Assembly (NCBI RefSeq): GCF_900105655.1
Contig: NZ_LT629787.1
Span: forward strand, 1,302,001-1,366,000
DNA: 64,000 bases
Direction of reading: 5' to 3'
Source: Halopseudomonas salegens
GTDB lineage: Bacteria > Pseudomonadota > Gammaproteobacteria > Pseudomonadales > Pseudomonadaceae
The first letter of the stretch is position 1, and each line of letters begins with the position of its first letter. The translations under genes and the position numbers were made by a program. A model generated the notes under the pieces. The model searched no databases. It had not been told where the DNA came from and saw only the letters and a program-made list of their open reading frames with translations. Shown here one piece after another: positions 11,852-23,995 of this stretch.

Positions 11852-12187
11852 ATGCACGACGAACGCCGCAGATTGGAGCGACACCCCGTGAGCAATAGCC
11901 TTGAAGTGTATGATTTGAGCAACGGCCATCATCTCGGCCGGGTTGTAGACTTGCATGTGGAAGGTCTCATGCTGCTGAGTGAGCTTCCGATTGAGCTGAA
12001 TCGTCAGTATGCACTTCAGGTCAACCTGCCGATGACGCTGAATGGTCGCCGCGAATTTCTTATCGACGCTGAAAGCCTGTGGCATCGCAAGAGTCTTAAT
12101 GGTAGCCAGTACTGGACGGGGCTGCACTTTACGGACATCCCCGAAGAATCTCGCTCGTGTATTGAAAAAATGGTCGCCAGTCGTTAA
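11852..12187 (+). CDS. PilZ domain protein with an altered second c-di-GMP motif
   Basis: The ATG at 11852 follows CAGGAG at correct spacing and gives 111 residues; the open frame reaches further upstream without a ribosome-binding site. The N-terminal RRLER (Arg6-Arg10) fits the RxxxR motif of c-di-GMP-binding PilZ domains. The second motif, normally D/NxSxxG, appears as DLHVEG (33-38), with histidine in place of serine. Binding is therefore plausible but not certain. The stop shares the bases TTAA with the convergent cobA stop. Confidence 0.82.
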   Translation: MHDERRRLERHPVSNSLEVYDLSNGHHLGRVVDLHVEGLMLLSELPIELNRQYALQVNLPMTLNGRREFLIDAESLWHRKSLNGSQYWTGLHFTDIPEESRSCIEKMVASR

Positions 12188-12963
12188 CCCGTCGTCGCGC
12201 CTGCCAGCCGGGGGCTTGACCGTTTCGACACCGAGCTATCCTCGAGTACGCCTGCAGCGTAGCCGGCAACATCCCCAATGATCAGCACGGCCGGGCTCTG
12301 CAGGCCGACGTCTGTGGCTACCTGCTCCAGACTGTCCAGTGTGCAGCGGGTTTCACGCTGCTCCGGCAAGCTGGCACGTTCAATCATTGCCACCGGGGTG
12401 CAGCCGGGCAAACCACCAGCCAGCAAACCGGTTTCGATTTGCGCCAGTCGGGCGACCCCCATATAGACCACCAGGGTGGTGCCGCTTTGTGCCAGGGCTG
12501 ACCAGTTCAGCTCGCTGTCATCCTGAGTATGCGCAGTCACCAGCGTAACGCCACGGCTGACGCCACGCAGGGTCAGCGGAATACCGCACTGGGTAGCGCC
12601 GGCCAGCCCGGCGGTAATGCCGTTGACGATTTCCGCCTGCACGCCGCGCTCAGCCAACCAGCGGGCCTCTTCACCAGCGCGACCAAAAATGCACGGGTCA
12701 CCGCCTTTGAGACGCACCAGGCGCTTGCCCTGGCGGCCGTAACGCAGCATCAGCCGGTTGATAAAGGCCTGCGGCGTCGAGCGGCAGCCACCGCGCTTGC
12801 CGACGCGGATAATGCGGGCCTGCGGGCAGTGTTCGAGAATCGCCGGATTGACCAGGTCATCCACCATGACCACCTCGGCCTGCGCCAATACCCGCACGGC
12901 TTTCAGCGTGATCATTTCAGGGTCGCCGGGACCGGCGCCGACCAGCCAGATATTTGTGTTCAT
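12184..12963 (-). CDS. cobA: Uroporphyrinogen-III C-methyltransferase (SUMT)
   Basis: The start at 12963 (MNTNIWLVGAGPGDPEM) has AGGA seven bases upstream and gives 259 residues; a longer frame runs into the repeat region and is not used. The enzyme adds two methyl groups from S-adenosylmethionine to uroporphyrinogen III, giving precorrin-2 for siroheme and cobalamin. Family motifs are VGAGPGDP, LVRLKGGDPCIFGRAGEE, the substrate loop GITAGLAGAT and the TLVVYMG block. At the end of the nitrate operon it would support siroheme supply for NirB. The single-domain length distinguishes it from CysG. Confidence 0.95.
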   Translation of the reverse strand: MNTNIWLVGAGPGDPEMITLKAVRVLAQAEVVMVDDLVNPAILEHCPQARIIRVGKRGGCRSTPQAFINRLMLRYGRQGKRLVRLKGGDPCIFGRAGEEARWLAERGVQAEIVNGITAGLAGATQCGIPLTLRGVSRGVTLVTAHTQDDSELNWSALAQSGTTLVVYMGVARLAQIETGLLAGGLPGCTPVAMIERASLPEQRETRCTLDSLEQVATDVGLQSPAVLIIGDVAGYAAGVLEDSSVSKRSSPRLAGATTG

Positions 12964-13007
12964 GGGGTGTTCCTGTGTGGTCATGGTTTTCATGCTGGCG
13001 CCTCTAT

Positions 13008-13108
13008 TCCTCTCTCCCCAACCCCTCTCCCGCGAGGGGAGAGGGGGCTTGAACTTAACCCGGTGCGAGCTGCCCCCCCTCGCGGGAGAGGGGGCGGGTT
13101 GGGAGAGC
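13008..13108. repeat. REPIN-like pair of GC-rich inverted repeats
   Basis: Two copies of a 34-39 base GC-rich unit, built from CTCTCCC, CAACCC and CCTCTCCCGCGAGGGG, face each other at about 13011-13048 and 13073-13108 across a 25-base spacer. Each copy can fold on itself, and the two can pair with each other. They fill the space between the nitrate reductase stop and the cobA start region. The layout is that of a doublet of repetitive extragenic palindromes as seen in many pseudomonads. I cannot tell its copy number in the genome. Confidence 0.75.
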
Positions 13109-15820
13109 TCAAGCCTCGACAAAATTCACTCGCTTGCTCAATAATTGCCGGACTTCGGGCACGCATGACCCGCACTCGGTGCCGCAGCCCAGTTCAGCCT
13201 TGAGCCCGTCCAGGTCCAGCCCACGGGCGATGCCGGCTTCGATCTGGCTCTGGCTGACGTTCATGCAGTTGCACAGCGTCTTGTCATTGCTGATGGTCGC
13301 GCCCCCGGGCGGGCTGCTGAGCGGGGCCATAAACCACTGGCGCAGGGCGGCATCGGCTTCGCCACTGTTCCAGACATTGCGCAACCAGTCGCGCGCAGCC
13401 GTTTCACCAGTGAGGCGGATTGCCGTGATGCGTCCATCCTCGATACGCACCCGCTTGCCCACGGCGCGACGCGGATCATCGTAGGCCACCACCGGCCCGC
13501 TATCCAGGCCAAGCAAGGCGTCAACCCGGGACAGCCAGTCAACCGATGCCGCTTCGGTATGCGCAACACGGACCAGCAGGGCTGAGCGCTCACGTCCGGT
13601 CAGGCTGAAACTGGCGTAGTCAAAGTCTTCACACAACGGGCGCAAGGCCGATAGCTGTTCCTGTACCCGGCCTTCCACCAGAATAAACAATTCCCAGGGC
13701 AGGGCGACCGGCTGCAGGCTGATCGCGGCCTGCTTGAGCTCCGGCTGTTTAGACAGTGGATCATAGGCCGGCTGGGTCAGCACATTGACTCCCAGCCCCT
13801 TGAGAAAGCGATCACCCCAGTGCATGGGAATAAAGGCCTGGCCGGAGCGGACCTGTTCATCGCCCTGAACCGGGAGAATCAGGCTGCCACGCTTGCTCTT
13901 TACCCGCACCAGCTGGCCATCCTGCAGTTTGCGGCTGCGCAGCTCATCCGGATGCAGACTGATCAGCGCCTGCTCGACATGGCCGAACAGCTGCGCTGCG
14001 GTACCCGTGCGACTCATGCCGTGCCACTGATCACGCAGGCGGCCGGTGTTCAGCAGCAAAGGGAAACGCGCATCGCGCTTTTCCTGCGGCGGTTGGTACT
14101 GCTCGGCGATAAAGCGCGCGCGGCCGTCCGGGGTGGGAAACTGACCGTCGCTGTACAAGCGCGCAGTACCCCGTTCAGCGCCAGCCGGAAACGGCCATTG
14201 CTGCGGTCCGAGCTCATCGATCATGGCATGGCTCAGCCCGCTGTAATCCAGGTCACGCCCGGCCGTCAGCCCCTTGTACTCGTCAAACAGCTCGCTTGGA
14301 CGGGAAAAGTCGAACAGGCTCGGTTGCCCAGGGCGCAACTGCTTCTCCAGCCGTTGCGCCAGATCACAGACAATGGCCCAGTCCGGGCGCGTCTCGGCCG
14401 GTGCCGGGATTGCCGGCCTTACATGACTGATGCAACGCTCGGAATTGGTCACCGTACCTTCTTTTTCACCCCAGCTGGCTGCCGGTAGCAACAGGTCGGC
14501 GTAACGGCACGTCTCCGTGGTGGCAAAGGCTTCCTGCACCACCACGAAGGGGCAGTTGGCCAGAGCCTCATGCACCAGCGTCTGGTTCGGCATGGATTGC
14601 GCCGGATTGGTACAGGCAATCCACAGTGCCTTGATCTTGCCTGAACGCACCGCCTCAAATAGCTCGATCGCACTCAAGCCAGGGTTCAGGGGCATCTGTT
14701 CGACACCCCAGTAGGCAGCCACTTCGCTCTGATGCTCGGCATTGGCCGCCTCGCGATGGCCCGGCAACAGGTTGGACAGGCTACCCGTCTCACGTCCGCC
14801 CATGGCATTGGGCTGCCCGGTCAGGGAGAAAGGCCCGCTGCCCGGTTTGCCGATCTGTCCGGTCGCCAGATGCAGATTGATCAAGGCACTGTTCTTGGCA
14901 CTGCCGGAACTGGACTGATTCAGGCCCATGCACCACAGCGACATAAAGCTCGGCGCACTGCCAATCATTCGCGCCGCTGCCTGCAGGTCATCCGGATGGA
15001 TACCACACAGCTCACTGACCATCGCCGGGCTGTAATCACGTACCAGGCTTTTCAGCGCATCAAAGCCTTCGGTATGCGCGTCGATAAAGGCTCTGTCTAT
15101 CCAGCCTTCCCAAAGCATAATGTGCAGCAGGCCGTGAAACAGCGCCACGTCGGTGCCCGGTTGTACCGCCAAATGCAGATCGGCAATTGCGCAGGTGTCC
15201 GTGCGTCGCGGATCGATCACGATAATCCGCTTGTCCGGGTTGGCTTCCTTGGCTGCCTCCAGCCGACGAAACAACACCGGATGGGCAAAGGCCATGTTAC
15301 TGCCCGCAATCAGCAGACAATCACTGGTCTCGATATCGGAGTATGAGCAGGGCGGGGCATCGGCACCCAGGCTGCGCTTGTAACCCACCACCGCACTCGA
15401 CATGCACAGCCGCGAATTGCTGTCGATATTATTGGTACCCACCAGGGCCCGCGCCAGTTTGTTGAAGGCGTAATAGTCTTCGGTCAACAACTGCCCCGAG
15501 ATATAAAAGGCCACGCTGTCAGGCCCGTGCTCGGCAATGGTCCGGCCAAACACCTGGGCCGCATGATCCATGGCGGTATCCCAGTCCGTGCGGCTGCGGG
15601 CCATGCCCTTGCCCAGACGCAATTCGGGATACAAGGCCCGCGCCGCCAGGTCCCCGGTCTTGTGCAGGGTCGAGCCCTTGCTGCACAAGCGACCCAGGTT
15701 CGCCGGGTGCTTGGGATCACCCGTGACGCCGAGAATTTTCTCGTCATCATGCTCGATCAATACCCCGCAGCCGACACCGCAGTAGCAGCAAGTGGATGCT
15801 GTTGTTCTGGAAGTTGTCAT
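13109..15820 (-). CDS. nasC: Assimilatory nitrate reductase, catalytic subunit
   Basis: The chosen start at 15820 (MTTSRTTASTCCYCGVGCGV) gives 903 residues and puts the cysteines of the N-terminal [4Fe-4S] cluster close to the start, as in homologues; no strong ribosome-binding site is visible. It is a molybdenum bis-MGD protein reducing nitrate to nitrite in the cytoplasm. Domains: Fe4S4 (1-55), molybdopterin oxidoreductase (60-540), a dinucleotide-binding domain (590-710), and a C-terminal BFD-like [2Fe-2S] domain with CNCMNVS and GCGTECGSC. The name follows P. aeruginosa, where nasA is the transporter; elsewhere the enzyme is called NasA or NarB. Confidence 0.94.
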   Translation of the reverse strand: MTTSRTTASTCCYCGVGCGVLIEHDDEKILGVTGDPKHPANLGRLCSKGSTLHKTGDLAARALYPELRLGKGMARSRTDWDTAMDHAAQVFGRTIAEHGPDSVAFYISGQLLTEDYYAFNKLARALVGTNNIDSNSRLCMSSAVVGYKRSLGADAPPCSYSDIETSDCLLIAGSNMAFAHPVLFRRLEAAKEANPDKRIIVIDPRRTDTCAIADLHLAVQPGTDVALFHGLLHIMLWEGWIDRAFIDAHTEGFDALKSLVRDYSPAMVSELCGIHPDDLQAAARMIGSAPSFMSLWCMGLNQSSSGSAKNSALINLHLATGQIGKPGSGPFSLTGQPNAMGGRETGSLSNLLPGHREAANAEHQSEVAAYWGVEQMPLNPGLSAIELFEAVRSGKIKALWIACTNPAQSMPNQTLVHEALANCPFVVVQEAFATTETCRYADLLLPAASWGEKEGTVTNSERCISHVRPAIPAPAETRPDWAIVCDLAQRLEKQLRPGQPSLFDFSRPSELFDEYKGLTAGRDLDYSGLSHAMIDELGPQQWPFPAGAERGTARLYSDGQFPTPDGRARFIAEQYQPPQEKRDARFPLLLNTGRLRDQWHGMSRTGTAAQLFGHVEQALISLHPDELRSRKLQDGQLVRVKSKRGSLILPVQGDEQVRSGQAFIPMHWGDRFLKGLGVNVLTQPAYDPLSKQPELKQAAISLQPVALPWELFILVEGRVQEQLSALRPLCEDFDYASFSLTGRERSALLVRVAHTEAASVDWLSRVDALLGLDSGPVVAYDDPRRAVGKRVRIEDGRITAIRLTGETAARDWLRNVWNSGEADAALRQWFMAPLSSPPGGATISNDKTLCNCMNVSQSQIEAGIARGLDLDGLKAELGCGTECGSCVPEVRQLLSKRVNFVEA

Positions 15821-15860
15821 AAGCACACACTGGTTGATTGCACATTGTCGGCAAGCGGCG

Positions 15861-15957
15861 TTGGGTACGACCTGCTCTGGACCGTCGATGCCCTGGACGG
15901 GCATCGTCGAGCGCCCAGGGATGGGTTCACAGCGTGTCCAGAGCAGGTCGTACCCAA
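15861..15957. repeat. 97-nt palindromic element bounded by a 22-bp perfect inverted repeat
   Basis: Bases 15861-15882 and 15936-15957 are perfect reverse complements (22 bp). Inside, CGATGCCC (15886-15893) and GGGCATCG (15899-15906) form a second hairpin with a 5-base loop. The element lies between the nirD stop and the nitrate reductase start and would be part of the operon transcript. The shape is that of a miniature inverted-repeat element or an mRNA-stabilising structure. There is no T-tract, so it is unlikely to be an intrinsic terminator. Confidence 0.8.
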
Positions 15958-16004: not shown

Positions 16005-16331
16005 TCAAGCCGACTCCCGTACCTTGTCCAGCGCCAACTGCACCCGCCCATCCTCAACGCGCACGGGGTAGCTGTGGGCACAGCCAACATCCGGCGCGAC
16101 CGCTTCACCGCTTTCCAGCTGGATTTGCCAGTTGTGCAGCGGGCAGGCCACCTGCTTGCCATAGATAATCCCCTGCGACAGTGGCCCGCCCTTGTGCGGG
16201 CAGCGGTCATCCAGAGCAAACACCTCATCCGCACTGGTGCGAAACAGCGCAATATCCCCTTTGGGGCCATTGATCACCCGTGAGCCCAGTTGCGGGATCT
16301 CTTCCAGAGCACAGATATCCAACCAGTTCAT
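16005..16331 (-). CDS. nirD: Nitrite reductase small subunit (Rieske-type)
   Basis: A 108-residue Rieske-fold protein, the small subunit of NAD(P)H-dependent assimilatory nitrite reductase. Both ligand pairs for a Rieske [2Fe-2S] cluster are present: CPH in DDRCPHKGGPLSQG and CPLH in VACPLHNWQ. Some NirD proteins lack the cluster ligands; here they are intact. The start overlaps the nirB stop (ATGA), and the nitrate reductase gene follows after 184 bases. Confidence 0.95.
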   Translation of the reverse strand: MNWLDICALEEIPQLGSRVINGPKGDIALFRTSADEVFALDDRCPHKGGPLSQGIIYGKQVACPLHNWQIQLESGEAVAPDVGCAHSYPVRVEDGRVQLALDKVRESA

Positions 16332-18784
16332 GCGTTCACCTCATCCAGCTGCTGTACCGCAATACGGCGGAATTCCTGCTTCAACTCTTCCTTCTCGATG
16401 CGCTCCTTCCACGGGTCCTGCTCGAACGACAGCGAGAACAACAGCCGCTCATGCAGCGCCTTGCGCCGCTCCGGATCGGCCAGCACACCCTGCTTGATGT
16501 GCTCCATACCGACGCGGTGCAGATAATGCACCGTACGCTCCAGGTAGAAGGCCTCTTCACGGTAGAGTTGCAGGAACGCCAGCGAATATTCCATCACCTC
16601 GTCCTCGGTTTTTACCTTGACGAAGAACTCACCGGCCTCGGTCTTGATCCCGCCGTTACCGCCGATATAGAGTTCCCAGCCGGAATCCACGCCGATGATG
16701 CCGATATCCTTGATACCCGACTCGGCACAGTTGCGCGGGCAACCCGAGACCGCCAGCTTGACCTTGTGCGGCGACCACATATTGAACAAGGCATGCTCCA
16801 GATCGATACCCATCTGCGTCGAATTTTGTGTACCGAAGCGGCAGAACTCGCTACCCACACAGGTTTTGACCGTGCGGATCGACTTGCCATAGGCATGCCC
16901 GGAAGGCATATCCAGATCCTTCCACACGCTGGGCAGGTCTTCCTTCTTGATACCCAACAGGTCGATACGCTGGCCCCCGGTCACCTTGACCATGGGCACC
17001 TGGTACTTGTCGGCCACATCGGCAATCCGGCGCAGCTCGGACGCATTGGTGACTCCACCCCACATGCGCGGCACCACCGAATAGGTGCCATCTTTCTGGA
17101 TGTTCGCGTGCGCCCGTTCATTGATAAAGCGCGACTGCGGATCATCCTTGGCCTCGCCGGGCCAGGTGGAAATCAGGTAGTAGTTGATCGCCGGGCGGCA
17201 GGTCGCACAGCCGTTGGGCGTGCGCCACTCCATAAAGGCCATGGCCTCGGGAATGCTGGTCAGATGGTTTTCGCGGATGGCCTTGCGCACCTGGCCATGG
17301 TTCAGATCAGTGCAACCACACACCGGACGGTCGCTCTTCGGCTTCACATCCGCCGCACCACCCACGGTATTCAGCACAATCTGCTCGACCAGTCCGACGC
17401 AGGAGCCGCAGGAGCTACCCGCCTTGGTGTGCTGTTTGACATCATCAACACTGAACAACCCGTGTTCCTGAATGGTTTTAACGATGGTGCCTTTGCACAC
17501 CCCGTTACAGCCACAGACTTCCATGTCATCGGGCATGTTGGCGGCCTTGTTCTGGCCCTGGTGACCCGTATCGCCGATGGCATTTTCCCCGAACATCAGA
17601 TGATCACGGATCTCGCTGACATTCTGGTTGTTCTTGATCATGCGGAAATACCAGCCGCCATCGGCAGTATCGCCATACATGCAGGCGCCAACCAGCACGT
17701 TGTCCCGAATCACCAGTTTCTTGTAGACACCGCCAATGGGGTCGGAGAGGGTGATCTCCTCACTGTCTTCATCACCCATAAAGTCGCCGGCAGAAAACAG
17801 GTCGACGCCGGTTACCTTCAACTTGGTCGAGGTGACCGAGCCTTCGTAGCGACCATAGCCGAGCATGGCCAGATGATTGGCACAGACCTTGGCTTGCTCA
17901 AACAAGGGGGCAACCAGCCCGTAGGCGATACCCCGGTGGCTGGCGCATTCGCCGATGGCGTAGATTTTTGGATCAAAGGTCTGCAGCGTATCGCTGACCA
18001 GAATGCCGCGGTTGCAGGCAAGCCCCGCACTTTCCGCCAGTTCGGTATTGGGCCGGATGCCGGCAGCCATGACCACCAGATCTGCCGGTACTTCGCTACC
18101 ATCCTTGAAACGTACGGCCTTGACCCGGCCCTTGCCGTCATCCAGCAGCTCGCTGGTGAATTGCGGCAGCATGAACTTCAGGCCGCGCTCTTCCAGCGAT
18201 TGTTGCAGGAGTTCACCTGAAGTGCGGTCGAGCTGGCGTTCCAGCAGCCATTCCCCGATATGCACGACGGTCACATCCATGCCACGCAGCATCAGCCCAT
18301 TCGCCGCCTCCAGACCGAGCAGGCCACCACCGATGACTACCGCGTGCTTGTGCGTCTTGGCGGTGTTCATCATCTGTTGGGTATCGGCAATATCACGGTA
18401 ACCGATTACACCCTCCAGGTCGTTGCCGGGGATCGGCAGCATAAAGGGGTTGGAGCCGGTCGCCAGCAACAAGCGGTCGTATTCCGCTTCAGAGCCGTCA
18501 TCGGCAATCACCTTGCAGTTGCGGCGGTCGATTTTTACAATCTTGCGGCCTGTGTGCAGGGTAATGCCATTGTCGGCATACCAGTCCAGCGGGTTGAGGA
18601 TAATGTCCTCGAAATTCTGCTCGCCAGCCAGTACCGGCGAAAGCAGGATGCGGTTGTAGTTCGGGTGCGGTTCAGCCCCGAACACCGTGATGTCGTACAT
18701 ATCGGGCGTCAGCTTGAGCAATTCTTCCAGGGTACGAACCCCGGCCATGCCGTTGCCTACCATCACCAATTTGAGCTTTTGCAT
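16328..18784 (-). CDS. nirB: NAD(P)H nitrite reductase large subunit
   Basis: I start at 18784 (MQKLKLVMVGNGMAG), which has GGAG six bases upstream; longer frames run into the leader terminator. The 818-residue protein reduces nitrite to ammonium with six electrons from NAD(P)H. Domains in order: FAD and NAD(P) binding (1-400), two BFD-type [2Fe-2S] regions (CGCNGVCKG with GSSCGSCVG; CGCTDLN with GCATCRP), then the ferredoxin-like and siroheme/[4Fe-4S] domains with TCVGSEFCRFG and VSGCPRNCAES. It is preceded by a sigma-54-type promoter and an ANTAR-type antitermination leader. Confidence 0.96.
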   Translation of the reverse strand: MQKLKLVMVGNGMAGVRTLEELLKLTPDMYDITVFGAEPHPNYNRILLSPVLAGEQNFEDIILNPLDWYADNGITLHTGRKIVKIDRRNCKVIADDGSEAEYDRLLLATGSNPFMLPIPGNDLEGVIGYRDIADTQQMMNTAKTHKHAVVIGGGLLGLEAANGLMLRGMDVTVVHIGEWLLERQLDRTSGELLQQSLEERGLKFMLPQFTSELLDDGKGRVKAVRFKDGSEVPADLVVMAAGIRPNTELAESAGLACNRGILVSDTLQTFDPKIYAIGECASHRGIAYGLVAPLFEQAKVCANHLAMLGYGRYEGSVTSTKLKVTGVDLFSAGDFMGDEDSEEITLSDPIGGVYKKLVIRDNVLVGACMYGDTADGGWYFRMIKNNQNVSEIRDHLMFGENAIGDTGHQGQNKAANMPDDMEVCGCNGVCKGTIVKTIQEHGLFSVDDVKQHTKAGSSCGSCVGLVEQIVLNTVGGAADVKPKSDRPVCGCTDLNHGQVRKAIRENHLTSIPEAMAFMEWRTPNGCATCRPAINYYLISTWPGEAKDDPQSRFINERAHANIQKDGTYSVVPRMWGGVTNASELRRIADVADKYQVPMVKVTGGQRIDLLGIKKEDLPSVWKDLDMPSGHAYGKSIRTVKTCVGSEFCRFGTQNSTQMGIDLEHALFNMWSPHKVKLAVSGCPRNCAESGIKDIGIIGVDSGWELYIGGNGGIKTEAGEFFVKVKTEDEVMEYSLAFLQLYREEAFYLERTVHYLHRVGMEHIKQGVLADPERRKALHERLLFSLSFEQDPWKERIEKEELKQEFRRIAVQQLDEVNA

Positions 18785-18813: not shown

Positions 18814-18854
18814 AAAAAAGGCGTCCCCACCGCTCTCGCGGTAAGGACGCCTTT
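18814..18854 (-). terminator. Leader terminator of nirB
   Basis: Read on the minus strand, AAAGGCGTCC (18854-18845) pairs with GGACGCCTTT (18826-18817), with an inner ACCGC/GCGGT stem, followed by a run of T (18819-18814). This is a textbook intrinsic terminator 30 bases before the nirB start, so transcription must be antiterminated for nirB to be expressed. The T-rich run is followed directly by the nirB ribosome-binding region. Confidence 0.88.
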
Positions 18855-18858
18855 GTCC
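18845..18858 (-). promoter_or_regulatory. ANTAR RNA P2 hairpin of the nirB leader
   Basis: Minus-strand sequence GGAC-AAAGGC-GTCC: a 4-bp stem with a hexaloop having A at position 1 and G at position 4, the signature recognised by ANTAR domain proteins. Its 3' arm is the same sequence as the 5' arm of the leader terminator, so the two structures exclude each other, as expected for antitermination by NasT. Confidence 0.75.
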
Positions 18859-18881
18859 GGTTCCTGATCAAGTCAGGAGTG

Positions 18882-18901
18882 CACTGTCGCCGTTGACAAT
18901 G
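18882..18901 (-). promoter_or_regulatory. ANTAR RNA P1 hairpin of the nirB leader
   Basis: Minus-strand sequence CATTGTC-AACGGC-GACAGTG: a 7-bp stem (one G-T pair) with hexaloop AACGGC, A at position 1 and G at position 4. The same hexaloop caps P1 of the nitrate transporter leader. A further small hairpin (18862-18878) lies between P1 and P2. Confidence 0.78.
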
Positions 18902-18939
18902 GCACTGTATGTAATAGCTGCCTTAGCTGAGTGTACTAA

Positions 18940-18956
18940 TGCAGACTTTGTGCCAA
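18940..18956 (-). promoter_or_regulatory. Sigma-54-type promoter of nirB
   Basis: Minus-strand TTGGCACAAAGTCTGCA matches TGGCAC-N5-TTGC with one mismatch and keeps the decisive GG-N10-GC spacing. A start about 12 bases after the GC (near 18929) would produce a leader of about 145 nt beginning before P1. NtrC-type nitrogen control is the expected activator; I did not locate NtrC sites. Confidence 0.65.
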
Positions 18957-19054
18957 CTTCAAAGCTCTGATTATTCAAGGGTTTGCATGGCCAGTCAGCG
19001 AGTTTGTCGCACCCTGATGAAGCAGTCCGCACCGCGCTGGTGCGGCTGCCCGGT

Positions 19055-20704
19055 TCAATACAGCCAGACGATGGCTGCGAGCAGATTGATGCTCAGCGAA
19101 ACCAGCGCCAGCGTTCGCCAGACCAGCAGCGGTTCACGCTCGATCAGCGGTTTTTTTGGTGTCAGCAGGTCTTCGCCACGTGCCAGCGCCAATAGCCATT
19201 CCTCGGCGGTTTCGTAGCGGTCTTCAGGGTCTTTCGCCAGCGCTTTCAGTAGCCAGTTGTCCACCCAGTTGGGCAGGTCCGGACGGTAGCGGCTGGGTGG
19301 GGTGGGGCGGCCAAAGCGTGGACGCTGGAAGGCTTCGATCTCACCGTAGGGAAAGTGACCGGTCAGTTGGTAATACAGGGTGACACCGGTGCTGTAGATA
19401 TCCTGCTGCGGGTCGGGTTCGGCACCCTGAAACACCTCGGGCGCCATATAGCTCGGCGTGCCGGCGGGCAAGCCAGGCTGCCAATCGGTCAGCCCAGGAC
19501 ACCAGGCCAGACCAAAATCCAGCAGTCGCAGGGTGCCATCGCTATCGATGTGCACATTGTCTGGCTTGATGTCACGATGGATCAGGTTGCGTCGGTGCAA
19601 TAGTCCCATGGCATGGATCAGGGCCGGGGCCCGCTGCTGCAGTTGTGCCAGCGACCAGAGCCCTTCGCTGGCCCGTGCTTCCGCCAGGGTGCGACCGGAA
19701 TAATCACGCATTACCAGATAGAGGTGCTTGCGTTCGGGCAACGGATGCAGCTCGGGTACCGACTGGCTGGCAACCCGGCGCAAGAACCATTCCTCCTGCA
19801 GAAGTTCACGACCGGCCTTGGTGTTATCGGCTTGACTGGGCGGTAACGTCTTCAACAGCCAGGGCTGGTCCGCGGTATCCGAGACCTGATAACACAGTGA
19901 TTGCTGTGAGCTGTGTGCCAATCCCTGGACCTGCCAGCCTTCAAAGGTCTGGCCGGCTTTCAGCCTGGGTGGCACGGCATAGTCATCCACTGGCCCCAGC
20001 ACATCGTCCAGGTTGGCTGTTGGCAGGGCGTCAAGGCTGACCAGCAAGGCGCTGGCATTGTCTTCACTGCCGGCCGCATAAGCGCTATTGACCAGCTCCT
20101 TGCAGGGTTCACTGTGGTGCAGGCAGGACAGAATGTCACTGTCACTGAGGTGTCCCCAGACGCCGTCACTGAGCAACAGGAAGCAATCACCGGCTTCCAG
20201 CTCACCTTCCAGATAATCAATCAGCGGGTACTCATCCAGACCCATCGCGCGCTTGAGCACATGCTGCATGTCCGGCTGCTCCCATACGTGCTCCTGGGTC
20301 AGGCGCTGCAGCCGTCCATCACGCAGCAGGTAGACCCGGCAATCACCGATGTGCGCCAGGGTATAGCGCCGGCCACGCAGAATCAGGCAGCTCAGGGTGG
20401 TCAGCAGGGGCTGGCCACCGCCGTTGGCACGCAGCCAGCGATTGTGGGCATTCAGCAGGCGTTCCAGTGACTGGGTAACCGACCAGGTCTCCGGTGTTGA
20501 ATAGTAATCCAGCGCCAGGGCCTGCAGCGTTGCCCGCGCGGCCAGGCCGCCATCGCGACACTGGCTGACACCGTCGGCGAGTGCCGCCAGATGCCCCTTG
20601 CTGGTTGCCAGCGCAGGCGCTGGCGTAGCCACGCGCAGGGCGTCCTGATTGTCCTTGCGCGGGCCGGCGGCGCTGGCTTCGTCTGTGCGGATCTGCAGGC
20701 CCAT
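19055..20704 (-). CDS. PP2C phosphatase-Ser/Thr kinase fusion in the nitrate operon
   Basis: A 549-residue fusion. Residues 1-235 form a PP2C-type phosphatase (GPRKDNQDALRV, LAALADGVSQCRDGGLAA, LLSDGVWGHLSD, SEDNASALLVSL). Residues 255-510 form a protein kinase domain with catalytic HRDIKPDN (His376-Arg377-Asp378) and DFG at 396-398. The glycine-rich loop is not recognisable (AHSSQQSLCYQV), although a lysine follows in WLLKTLPP. A membrane helix ends the protein (LALVSLSINLLAAIVWLY), so both enzymes should face the cytoplasm. It starts one base after the transporter stop. P. aeruginosa carries a kinase gene at the same place; the substrate is unknown. Confidence 0.9.
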   Translation of the reverse strand: MGLQIRTDEASAAGPRKDNQDALRVATPAPALATSKGHLAALADGVSQCRDGGLAARATLQALALDYYSTPETWSVTQSLERLLNAHNRWLRANGGGQPLLTTLSCLILRGRRYTLAHIGDCRVYLLRDGRLQRLTQEHVWEQPDMQHVLKRAMGLDEYPLIDYLEGELEAGDCFLLLSDGVWGHLSDSDILSCLHHSEPCKELVNSAYAAGSEDNASALLVSLDALPTANLDDVLGPVDDYAVPPRLKAGQTFEGWQVQGLAHSSQQSLCYQVSDTADQPWLLKTLPPSQADNTKAGRELLQEEWFLRRVASQSVPELHPLPERKHLYLVMRDYSGRTLAEARASEGLWSLAQLQQRAPALIHAMGLLHRRNLIHRDIKPDNVHIDSDGTLRLLDFGLAWCPGLTDWQPGLPAGTPSYMAPEVFQGAEPDPQQDIYSTGVTLYYQLTGHFPYGEIEAFQRPRFGRPTPPSRYRPDLPNWVDNWLLKALAKDPEDRYETAEEWLLALARGEDLLTPKKPLIEREPLLVWRTLALVSLSINLLAAIVWLY

Positions 20705-21979: not shown

Positions 21980-22034
21980 AAAAAAAAACGCCACCCCCCT
22001 CCCCGGAACTGGTCCGGGTCAGGGAGTGACGTCG
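21980..22034 (-). terminator. Leader terminator of the nitrate transporter gene
   Basis: On the minus strand a compound GC-rich stem (ACGTCACTCCCT with AGGGGGGTGGCGT, inner CCCGGA/TCCGGG) is followed by a run of about nine to ten T (21988-21980). It sits about 60 bases before the start codon of the transporter gene and would block expression unless antiterminated. Confidence 0.82.
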
Positions 22035-22039
22035 TTGTC
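22028..22039 (-). promoter_or_regulatory. ANTAR RNA P2 hairpin of the transporter leader
   Basis: Minus-strand GAC-AACGAC-GTC: a short 3-bp stem with hexaloop AACGAC (A1, G4). It overlaps the 5' arm of the leader terminator and starts two bases after P1. The stem is shorter than in the nirB leader. Confidence 0.6.
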
Positions 22040-22041
22040 TG

Positions 22042-22068
22042 GTCAGCAACCGCCGTTGGCTGCCTGAC
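22042..22068 (-). promoter_or_regulatory. ANTAR RNA P1 hairpin of the transporter leader
   Basis: Minus-strand GTCA-G-GCAGCC, hexaloop AACGGC, then GGTTGC-TGAC: a 10-bp stem with one bulged G and one G-T pair. The hexaloop is identical to that of P1 in the nirB leader while the stems differ in sequence, which is the covariation expected of a conserved RNA fold. Confidence 0.8.
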
Positions 22069-22076
22069 ATAAGTAA

Positions 22077-22092
22077 AGCAGGAAGCATGCCA
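22077..22092 (-). promoter_or_regulatory. Sigma-54-type promoter of the nitrate transporter
   Basis: Minus-strand TGGCATGCTTCCTGCT keeps GG-N10-GC and most of the TGGCACG-N4-TTGC consensus. A start 12 bases after the GC would be near 22066, so the transcript would begin almost exactly at the P1 hairpin, which supports the call. Confidence 0.65.
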
Positions 22093-22124: not shown

Positions 22125-22709
22125 CTACGCGTCGCTGCCTCCCAGCAGCTCCTGCATGGCAATGATTTGCTCGGCGACATCAATCAGTTTCTGTTGGCGG
22201 CTCATTGCCTGCCGGCGCATGAGGGTGTACGCCTCGGGTTCTGTGCATTGTTTCATGTTCATCAACAGGCCCTTGGCTTGTTCGATGCGTTTGCGTTCAT
22301 GCAATTGCTGTTCTCGGGCCTGAATTTCCGCGCGGTACTGCTGGTCGGTTTCAAAGCGTGCCATGGCCACATCCAGAATGGGCTGCAAGCGAGCGCTGTT
22401 GACCCCTTCAACAATATAGGCGCTGACTCCGGAACTGATTGCCTGGCGCATCACCCCGGGATCATGGTCATCGGTAAACAACACAATCGGGCGGGGTTGG
22501 TCTCGAGTCAGCAGGCAGACCTGCTCCATCACGTCACGGCCAGGTGAATCACTATCAATCAGTACCACGTCTGGCGTGCAGGCGGCTACTCGCGCGGGCA
22601 GGTCAATGGCCAGACCTGATTCTGCGACGACATCGAAGCCGGCTTCGGTCAGTGCGGTTTTCAGATGACCGACTTTTTTCTCGGTATCATTGATCAGCAG
22701 AATACGCAT
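22125..22709 (-). CDS. nasT: ANTAR-domain antiterminator NasT
   Basis: A 194-residue protein with a receiver-like N-terminal domain (MRILLINDTEKK, DVVLIDSDSPG) and a C-terminal ANTAR domain (about 130-190: ERKRIEQAKGLLMNMKQCTE, EAYTLMRRQAM). ANTAR proteins bind paired hexaloop hairpins in leader RNA and prevent termination. In Azotobacter and Paracoccus, NasT is held inactive by NasS until nitrate or nitrite is sensed. The gene is 3 bases downstream of nasS and upstream of the transporter leader, one of its likely targets. Confidence 0.94.
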   Translation of the reverse strand: MRILLINDTEKKVGHLKTALTEAGFDVVAESGLAIDLPARVAACTPDVVLIDSDSPGRDVMEQVCLLTRDQPRPIVLFTDDHDPGVMRQAISSGVSAYIVEGVNSARLQPILDVAMARFETDQQYRAEIQAREQQLHERKRIEQAKGLLMNMKQCTEPEAYTLMRRQAMSRQQKLIDVAEQIIAMQELLGGSDA

Positions 22710-22712
22710 TGC

Positions 22713-23927
22713 TTAATCCTGCTCCGGTCTGGTCGACGGGGTGCGAGCATGCAGGGCAAAGCTGTCGGCATAGGCGGCCGGGTCCGCTCCATTCCAGAGG
22801 CTGCCATCGAACAACCGGCTTTCGCGCAGGGGGCTGGGGGGCAGGGATATATCCAGTGCGCTGGCCGCTGCACGGTAAAGATCCAATTGCTGTACCTGTT
22901 GCGCAACAGCCAGGTAGTCCGGATCCTCCTTGAGCAAGCCCCAACGGCGGAACTGGGTAAGGAACCACAGCCCATCTGACAGGTAGGGCGGGTTGACCTC
23001 GCCCTGAGCAAAAAACCGCAACGCATGTTGATCAGTCCATCGTTGACCACGCCCATCGGCATAATCACCCTGGAATCGCGGCAGCAAGGTGGCTACCGGT
23101 GTGTCCAGAAACGCATTGCCGCTGATCAATTGCGCTGTGCTCTCGCGGTTGGCGGCATCGGCATCGATAAAACGGCTGGCATCCAGAACGGCCATGATCA
23201 GGGCGCGGGCTGTGTTCGGATACTGGTCGACGAAAGTCTGCGTGCAGGTAAGCACCTTTTCCGGATGATCCGGCCAGATAGCCTGGCTGCTGGCAACGGT
23301 AAAGCCTAGTTCTTCGCTGACCGCCTGGGCACCCCAGGGTTCACCCGCGCAGAAACCGTCGATGCGGCCGGCTCGCATGTGCTCGACCATTCTTGCCGGT
23401 GGCACAACCTGCATGTCTACATCGCGCAGGGGGTGAATGCCATGTGCTGCCAGCCAGTAATACAGCCACATGGCGTGGGTGCCACCGGGAAAGGTATGTG
23501 CCAGGGTCAGCCGGTGTGGCGATTGCCGGATATGCCGCGCAAGTGAGGCACCATCGGTAACGCCAGCATCCAGCAAGGCCTGTGATAGCTGAATGCTCTG
23601 TCCGTTCTGGTTGAGTCCCATGAGCACCGCCATGGGTGTTTGCTGAGCGGTCAGCCCCAGATGTATCCCATATGACAACCCGTAGAGACCCTGAGCAGCA
23701 TCCAGTGCCCCACTGAGCAAACGGTCGCGCAAAGCTGACCAGGATGACTGGCGACGCAATTGCAGGCTCAGCCCGTAGGGCTGGCCAAAACCCTGAGTGG
23801 CAGCCACGATCAGCGAAGCAGAGTCGGTCAATGGCATAAAGCCGATATTCAGCAGGCTCTTTTCCGGAGCATCGCTGCCGTCGACCCAGGCGAGATTGGC
23901 GGGTAGGGTTTGGTGGTGATCAGTCAT
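22713..23927 (-). CDS. nasS: Nitrate sensor NasS
   Basis: A 404-residue protein related to the periplasmic nitrate-binding proteins NrtA/CmpA, but with no signal peptide (it begins MTDHHQTLPANLAWVDGSD), so it should stay in the cytoplasm. Family blocks include LNIGFMPLTDSASLIVA, GGTHAMWLYYWLAAHGI and DGFCAGEPWGAQA. Known NasS proteins bind nitrate or nitrite and release NasT. It is the first gene of the nasST pair, and its own leader has a P2-like hairpin and a terminator. Confidence 0.93.
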   Translation of the reverse strand: MTDHHQTLPANLAWVDGSDAPEKSLLNIGFMPLTDSASLIVAATQGFGQPYGLSLQLRRQSSWSALRDRLLSGALDAAQGLYGLSYGIHLGLTAQQTPMAVLMGLNQNGQSIQLSQALLDAGVTDGASLARHIRQSPHRLTLAHTFPGGTHAMWLYYWLAAHGIHPLRDVDMQVVPPARMVEHMRAGRIDGFCAGEPWGAQAVSEELGFTVASSQAIWPDHPEKVLTCTQTFVDQYPNTARALIMAVLDASRFIDADAANRESTAQLISGNAFLDTPVATLLPRFQGDYADGRGQRWTDQHALRFFAQGEVNPPYLSDGLWFLTQFRRWGLLKEDPDYLAVAQQVQQLDLYRAAASALDISLPPSPLRESRLFDGSLWNGADPAAYADSFALHARTPSTRPEQD

Positions 23928-23941
23928 GGGTTTCCATCAAT

Positions 23942-23988
23942 AAAAAACGCCGCGTCCGCCAGTCCGGAGACTGGCAGAGAGCGACGCC
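23942..23988 (-). terminator. Terminator between usp and nasS
   Basis: On the minus strand GCGTC and GACGC form an outer stem around a strong inner hairpin (GCCAGTC-TCCG-GACTGGC), followed after GGCG by TTTTTT (23947-23942). It ends about 15 bases before the nasS start. It may simply end the usp transcript, but the overlap with a P2-like hairpin suggests regulated read-through. Confidence 0.75.
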
Positions 23989-23995
23989 ATTGTCG
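23982..23995 (-). promoter_or_regulatory. P2-like ANTAR hairpin before nasS
   Basis: Minus-strand CGAC-AATGGC-GTCG: a 4-bp stem with an A1/G4 hexaloop, overlapping the 5' arm of the terminator exactly as in the nirB leader. I found no matching P1 hexaloop upstream; a CCGGTGA/TCA-T-CCGG stem about 40 bases upstream has an 8-base loop instead. Confidence 0.5.

Follow-up and report, generated by a model that had tools for sequence, protein, structure and literature searches.

A very probable Halopseudomonas version of the NalA antitermination leader upstream of nirB, and its variation with ANTAR regulators across the genus

The leader preceding nirB in Halopseudomonas salegens, located on the minus strand of the 64,000-nucleotide stretch analysed here (the window), is very probably the Halopseudomonas version of NalA, with nitrogen-limited initiation followed by nitrate-dependent read-through mediated by NasT. 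The core of this finding is correct and already known; the present analysis extends a well-worked Pseudomonas switch to Halopseudomonas, whose members show how it changes when its regulator is lost. Added here are the comparison of regulator losses with losses of leader parts in the genus, a reading of the narK RNA, and the P2-terminator leaders of nasST and nasF. The promoter, the hairpins and their mutual exclusivity are present at the locus together with conservation, covariation and a fitting gene neighbourhood (Table 1). The start site, NtrC binding, termination, NasT binding and read-through are predicted for the window leader, as follows. Under nitrogen shortage, NtrC (perhaps at an upstream palindrome) would drive initiation by the sigma-54 polymerase near 18929. 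Without nitrate, NasS would hold NasT, the terminator would form and transcription would end in a short product (‘sRNA P11’, about 115 nt). With nitrate or nitrite, freed NasT would bind as a dimer to the A1/G4 hexaloops of P1 and P2; P2 would be held shut, the terminator prevented and nirB-nirD-nasA-cobA read. The RNA switch probably restricts the reading of nirB to conditions of nitrogen shortage in which nitrate is available.

Table 1. Leader elements and genes in the window (positions count from its first letter)
Feature	Position	Strand	Description and basis
Sigma-54 promoter	18940..18956	-	TTGGCACAAAGTCTGCA, TTGGCAC-N5-CTGCA, GG-N10-GC; sequence
Predicted transcription start	near 18929	-	inferred from sigma-54 promoter
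P1 hairpin	18879..18905	-	hexaloop AACGGC, C-G closing pair; sequence, fold, covariation
Linker hairpin	18862..18878	-	TCCTGA..TCAGGA; sequence, fold; one covarying pair, CG to UA
P2 hairpin	18845..18858	-	GGAC-AAAGGC-GTCC; sequence; four pairs invariant in 26/26
Intrinsic terminator with T tract	18814..18854	-	terminator 18817-18854, T tract 18814-18819; sequence, fold, covariation
NtrC-site type palindrome	19029..19043		GCACC-N5-GGTGC; centre about 107 bp upstream of predicted start
Second leader, before MFS transporter gene	21980..22092	-	sigma-54 promoter, P1 (AACGGC), P2 (AACGAC), overlapping terminator
Third leader, before nasS	23942..23995	-	P2 (AATGGC) and overlapping terminator; sequence, fold
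nirB	16328..18784	-	nitrite reductase large subunit, controlled gene; Pfam NIR_SIR, Pyr_redox_2, Fer2_BFD
nirD-like	16005..16331	-	small subunit, 108 aa; named from position and sequence
nasA-type	13109..15904	-	assimilatory nitrate reductase, PA1779-like, same operon; Pfam Molybdopterin, Fer2_BFD
cobA-type	12184..13122	-	uroporphyrinogen methyltransferase, operon end; named from sequence
nasT	22125..22709	-	REC-like and ANTAR, likely RNA-binding antiterminator; Pfam ANTAR 68 bits
nasS	22713..23927	-	nitrate-sensor partner; NMT1_2 family, 304 bits

The initial annotation had proposed, in minus-strand order, a promoter, P1, a linker hairpin, P2 and a terminator, and all were found where it had placed them. 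The arm-sharing it described is also present: the 5' arm of the terminator begins inside the P2 loop and takes up the whole 3' arm of P2, making P2 and the terminator mutually exclusive. The resemblance it drew to ANTAR-protein targets holds, as the leader carries two short hairpins with A1/G4 hexaloops (AACGGC and AAAGGC), the second of which excludes an intrinsic terminator, and both helices are retained in relatives. The promoter, with its GG-N10-GC core and flanking consensus, occurs in relatives too, and nasT, said to be encoded about 3.3 kb upstream, lies about 3.2 kb from the promoter. The leader RNA has a folding energy of -53.1 kcal/mol (z = -7.16), a value as low being reached by 0 of 200 shuffles. 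On stepwise folding at six transcript lengths (83, 89, 95, 101, 107 and 113 nt), P2 formed at 83, 89 and 101 nt, another fold appeared at 95 nt and the terminator formed at 107 and 113 nt. By these folds (terminator -32.0 kcal/mol, isolated P2 -4.0 kcal/mol), the terminator is expected to win unaided, as an antitermination switch requires.

A covariance-model search gave a match to Rfam RF00625 (“sRNA P11”) at 18967-18820 (72.1 bits, E = 2e-13), directly 5' of nirB and barely above the gathering score of 70 bits. The P11 model also matched the nirB leader in all seven Pseudomonas-type loci scanned (88.4-133.3 bits). RF03032 (narK RNA) gave a weak match to the window's nirB leader (23.5 bits, below its gathering score of 43.2), and the Rfam mir-593 and ctRNA_p42d matches, both below gathering, were taken as chance. 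Conservation was assessed in 100 nirB-upstream stretches, a set drawn by nirB and comprising the window, 80 named nirB loci and 19 further leaders of the genus; a sigma-54 promoter and P2 were found in 99 of these, the sole exception being L016 (the ANTAR-less genome G046), while the three other ANTAR-less nirB genomes of the genus lie outside the set. Alignment A1 retained 26 leaders of <90% identity, with 11 rows removed (eight NasR-only and three duplicate genus rows). For P1, linker and P2, covariation was judged by five measures, two of them weaker. Pairs formed in 90.1% of cells, as against a shuffled mean of 80.0 and at most 47.5 for slid structures, with 54 double-change cells versus 17.5 in shuffles; by the weaker measures, 10 pairs showed a double change (reached by 33 of 500 shuffles) and 26 further pair types occurred (reached by 100 of 500). 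The terminator was 99.0% paired, with 34 double-change cells versus 11.4 in shuffles. Thus, P1, linker and terminator covary among the 26 relatives, while the four pairs of P2 never vary and P2 therefore offers no covariation evidence. Both hexaloops keep A1, G4 and the C-G closing pair without exception in all 26 aligned leaders.

Terminators and GC-rich hairpins are common, and the locus might accordingly be no more than a promoter and a terminator of the usual kind, with hexaloops that arose by chance and no antitermination. Such a reading is already disfavoured and scarcely credible given the covariation with invariant loop positions, the co-loss of the switch with ANTAR genes (described below) and the narrow spacing of the hairpins: in each of the 15 genus leaders that have a canonical P1, its loop starts 35-38 nt ahead of P2 (search range 26-44). 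A P1-to-P2 distance of 50 was seen in L032 and L033.

With respect to nitrogen control, a loose sigma-54 pattern was present somewhere in the 333 nt scanned in all 26 nirB genomes of the genus. The upstream palindrome GCACC-N5-GGTGC, recognised by the NtrC-site consensus, has one copy in the window against 0.20 expected and 16 copies genome-wide, a reversed control pattern having 2; among 81 nirB upstream stretches, an NtrC-type palindrome was found in five (exact) or eight (loose). Being itself a stem beside the end of the kinase gene, it might instead be that gene's terminator, although no T run follows. The proposed two-layer control (nitrogen limitation through sigma-54, nitrate through NasS/NasT) fits the anatomy and is reported for the orthologous NalA in Pseudomonas (PMC12830290, PMC3973561). 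The present analysis adds that NasS is encoded beside NasT, that a palindrome of NtrC-site type (not widely conserved) lies upstream, and that relatives lacking NasT, or lacking ANTAR genes altogether, have lost P1 or the entire switch. Strict dependence on sigma-54 is argued against in P. putida, where nitrogen limitation is reported still to have increased cobA and nasA in an rpoN mutant (PMC7801951).

The operon order in the window (nirB-nirD-nasA type-cobA) is that of the NalA operon. The putative regulator, a REC-like and ANTAR protein encoded beside the nitrate-binding NasS, has a Response_reg match of 29.5 bits, slightly under the cut-off of 30.2. NasT is a likely, yet not the only, candidate regulator, as the genome also encodes a second ANTAR protein of the NasR type (454-aa NIT-ANTAR) before a nasF-type operon. 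This NasR-type gene and its nasF-E-D type ABC transporter operon lie outside the window (L102, 6471-11309, minus strand). A fused PP2C phosphatase and Ser/Thr kinase gene (19055-20704, minus strand) sits between the transporter gene and nirB, with no evident role in nitrate assimilation; the fusion gene presumably holds the same position in P. aeruginosa as well.

The genus provides a natural experiment: the leader parts that vary between genomes carrying NasT, NasR alone or neither are the very ones to which the model assigns a role. The set comprised 37 genomes (nirB in 26, an ANTAR gene in 22), with ANTAR genes classed by open-frame length as NasT (193-244 residues) or NasR type (298-469 residues) and a domain scan covering the two proteins of the window genome. 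P2 and the terminator were present in all 22 nirB genomes with an ANTAR gene and in none of the four without. Canonical P1 occurred in 14/14 genomes with NasT, in 1/8 with the NasR type only (G040; three of these NasR-only genomes, G033, G036 and G040, being 79-83% complete) and in 0/4 with neither. On supported branches, these patterns amount to only four independent contrasts for NasT versus P1 (p = 0.125) and two for ANTAR versus terminator (p = 0.5; sign tests).

These distributions also bear on the regulator itself. The NasR-type protein, rather than NasT, might be the main antiterminator of the nirB leader, or both might act, considering that its gene precedes a nasF-type operon whose leader shares the P2 and terminator design, that the eight NasR-only nirB genomes of the genus retain P2 and terminator, and that Klebsiella NasR is reported to bind P2 alone weakly (about 12 uM versus 1 uM for both hairpins; PMC7496416). 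This is nevertheless unlikely, because the window leader has a canonical P1, a part tied in the genus to NasT and not to NasR alone, and absent from all 10 nasF leaders extracted. Furthermore, the four genomes with NasT and no NasR type (G019, G020, G044 and G045) carry the full leader, and deletion of nasT in P. putida is reported to abolish growth on nitrate (PMC7261876). NasT thus stays the preferred regulator of the window leader.

Two of the nearest relatives (L011/G036 and L012/G037; nirB 97 and 96% identical) illustrate the loss of P1. Their loci hold no nasS, nasT or transporter gene, the universal-stress gene (which lies beyond nasS in the window) directly adjoins the leader, and the promoter, P2 and terminator are retained with P1 gone. 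As P1 is on the nasST-block side of the leader, joint inheritance could explain part of the link between P1 and NasT. Linkage to the nasST block does not explain the loss of the whole switch in L016/G046 (H. yangmingensis), where no ANTAR gene was detected: the nirB promoter, NtrC-type palindrome and end of the kinase gene are kept, P1, P2 and terminator are lost, and the narK leader is likewise without hairpins. One metagenome-assembled genome (L017/G007) has an intact nirB leader with no ANTAR gene found, owing either to an incomplete assembly or to a real exception. Conversion, whereby the nirB leader of NasR-only genomes would be a copy of the nasF leader, was not supported. In the two NasR-only genomes from which both leaders were extracted (G036 and G037), local similarity of nirB and nasF leaders was like that of shuffled sequences (7.0 and 6.0 versus 6.6 and 6.5). 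Over the final 25 nt upstream of P2 there was a slight resemblance (12.0 and 11.5 versus 9.2 and 9.3), and the NasT-bearing G016 and G041 also exceeded shuffles there (10.5 and 10.0 versus 8.4 and 8.5).

It may tentatively be suggested, with some doubt, that the leader is modular, with P2 and the terminator forming a general ANTAR switch and P1 naming the regulator. Upon loss of NasST with NasR left, P1 would decay and NasR would take over the P2-terminator pair; upon loss of all ANTAR proteins, the switch would be deleted and the sigma-54 promoter kept. If this were true, two nitrate sensors would be interchangeable on one leader. Least well explained is why NasR-only genomes lack P1, which the Klebsiella NasR work does not predict, as far as the available portion of that source goes (PMC7496416).

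The same losses bear on a further alternative, that P11 is a stand-alone small RNA acting on other genes, with read-through incidental. Rfam lists P11 as a gene and not as a cis-regulator, and termination would indeed release a separate transcript. Such a role is highly unlikely, given that the element directly precedes nirB in the window as it does in 99 of the 100 stretches (a set drawn by nirB), that the four ANTAR-less genomes of the genus are without P2 and terminator, yet nirB and a promoter match remain, and that it is described as an operon leader in PAO1 (PMC9196836, PMC3973561).

Apart from the nirB leader, the window harbours two sibling leaders. Between nasT and the transporter gene, RF03032 (narK RNA) matches 22091-22026 on the minus strand (46.4 bits; gathering 43.2). 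The match starts within a sigma-54 promoter (GG 22091-22090, GC 22079-22078) and has P1 (loop AACGGC) as its hairpin; P2 (GAC-AACGAC-GTC) and a terminator using the P2 arm follow closely downstream. Of 71 named transporter loci, 53 had the two hairpins and a T run by a strict script, with a promoter match in 43 of these; by a lenient script (one or two weak pairs, four T's) the number was 70, with a promoter-like match in 63, and the only locus failing it was L016. The narK RNA is most plausibly the promoter and first half of a NasT-type leader, which offers a function for this Rfam family; the P11 and narK models both start inside untranscribed promoter DNA, the RF00625 and RF03032 matches in the window beginning upstream of the predicted start. 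Weak RF03032 matches elsewhere in the genome, apart from those to the nirB and nasS leaders, look like chance. Such a reading of the narK leader was foreseen in part by earlier work, in which NasT hairpins were predicted before Bradyrhizobium narK (PMC6759348) and ANTAR RNA matches were listed upstream of nitrate/nitrite transporters and nitrite reductase (Ramesh et al., PMC3369931). Against simple expectation, the Bradyrhizobium nasT mutant is reported to have expressed narK more strongly (PMC6759348), so that the presence of NasT-type hairpins need not imply that NasT activates the gene. Among titles and abstract openings, with few subscription journals covered, a literature search returned no link between RF03032 and ANTAR proteins and no exchange of NasT and NasR on one leader.

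The P2-terminator pair ahead of nasS points to ANTAR control of nasST itself. By eye, neither a canonical P1 nor a sigma-54 promoter was seen in this leader; three Halopseudomonas loci (L013-L015) have an equivalent before nasS, one of them with a second hexaloop hairpin upstream. The nasF leader carries a sigma-54 promoter, P2 (GGAC-AACGGC-GTCC) and a terminator. Genome-wide, the P2 pattern is rarer than its reversed control (24 versus 63 matches) and hence uninformative alone. Five consecutive T's lay within 63 nt for 5 of the 24, and by eye a terminator overlapped the hairpin in four of those five (nirB, narK, nasS and nasF, not L199).

At the family scale, co-occurrence was examined in 148 genomes (completeness filter 95%) with a leader model, R1, built from A1; results are given as counts, since shared descent inflates the Fisher value, and genomes absent from the match listing were counted as without a match. 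R1 matched 112 of the 148 genomes, all 112 of which have an ANTAR gene, and none of the 25 ANTAR-less genomes. A match was present in the same genome for 100 of 102 nirB genomes, and lay just 5' of nirB in all 10 genomes whose positions were compared by eye. In 12 genomes R1 matched without any nirB match, and the match there therefore precedes another gene. The two nirB genomes missed by R1 were G046, which has no ANTAR gene, and G069, in which P1 (AATGGC), P2 and terminator are visible by eye, so that here the model failed. Three genomes of genus g5 (G120, G126 and G136) each have two R1 matches about 4.7-6 kb apart, and nirB-type leaders may be duplicated in them.

P11 and NalA, which we take to be one RNA because they occupy the same position, are a switch known in Pseudomonas; the window leader is a further example and its arrangement is not new. 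In PAO1, NalA immediately precedes nirBD-PA1779-cobA as its leader and carries sigma-54 boxes, a terminator and NtrC palindromes (PMC9196836, PMC3973561); in P. protegens Cab57, the latter study saw no such palindrome. A review states that NasT binds NalA, citing work in P. putida (PMC12830290), and in Paracoccus, NasS-NasT is reported to dissociate with nitrate and NasT to bind a leader RNA. The window leader shares with NalA/RF00625 of P. aeruginosa and P. putida its place, operon order, sigma-54 promoter, terminator and reported antiterminator, NasT. It differs in a lower score (72.1 bits versus 88-133 in the seven Pseudomonas-type loci), in its lower P1 stem and linker, and in a genome that also encodes a NasR type. 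With the dual-hairpin RNAs targeted by EutV, NasR, AmiR and NasT, it has in common the A1/G4 hexaloops, the C-G closing pair and a second hairpin overlapping the terminator (PMC3369931), but it has a third (linker) hairpin between P1 and P2. In the RF03032-type narK leader of the window the parts follow one another in the same order, with other loop and stem sequences and a transporter gene downstream. The Klebsiella nasF leader, whose NasR selects two hairpins with C-G-closed A1/G4 loops, belongs to the same mechanism class with the same nitrate input (PMC7496416); there, however, the sensor is a one-component NIT-ANTAR protein, whereas here it is NasS/NasT.
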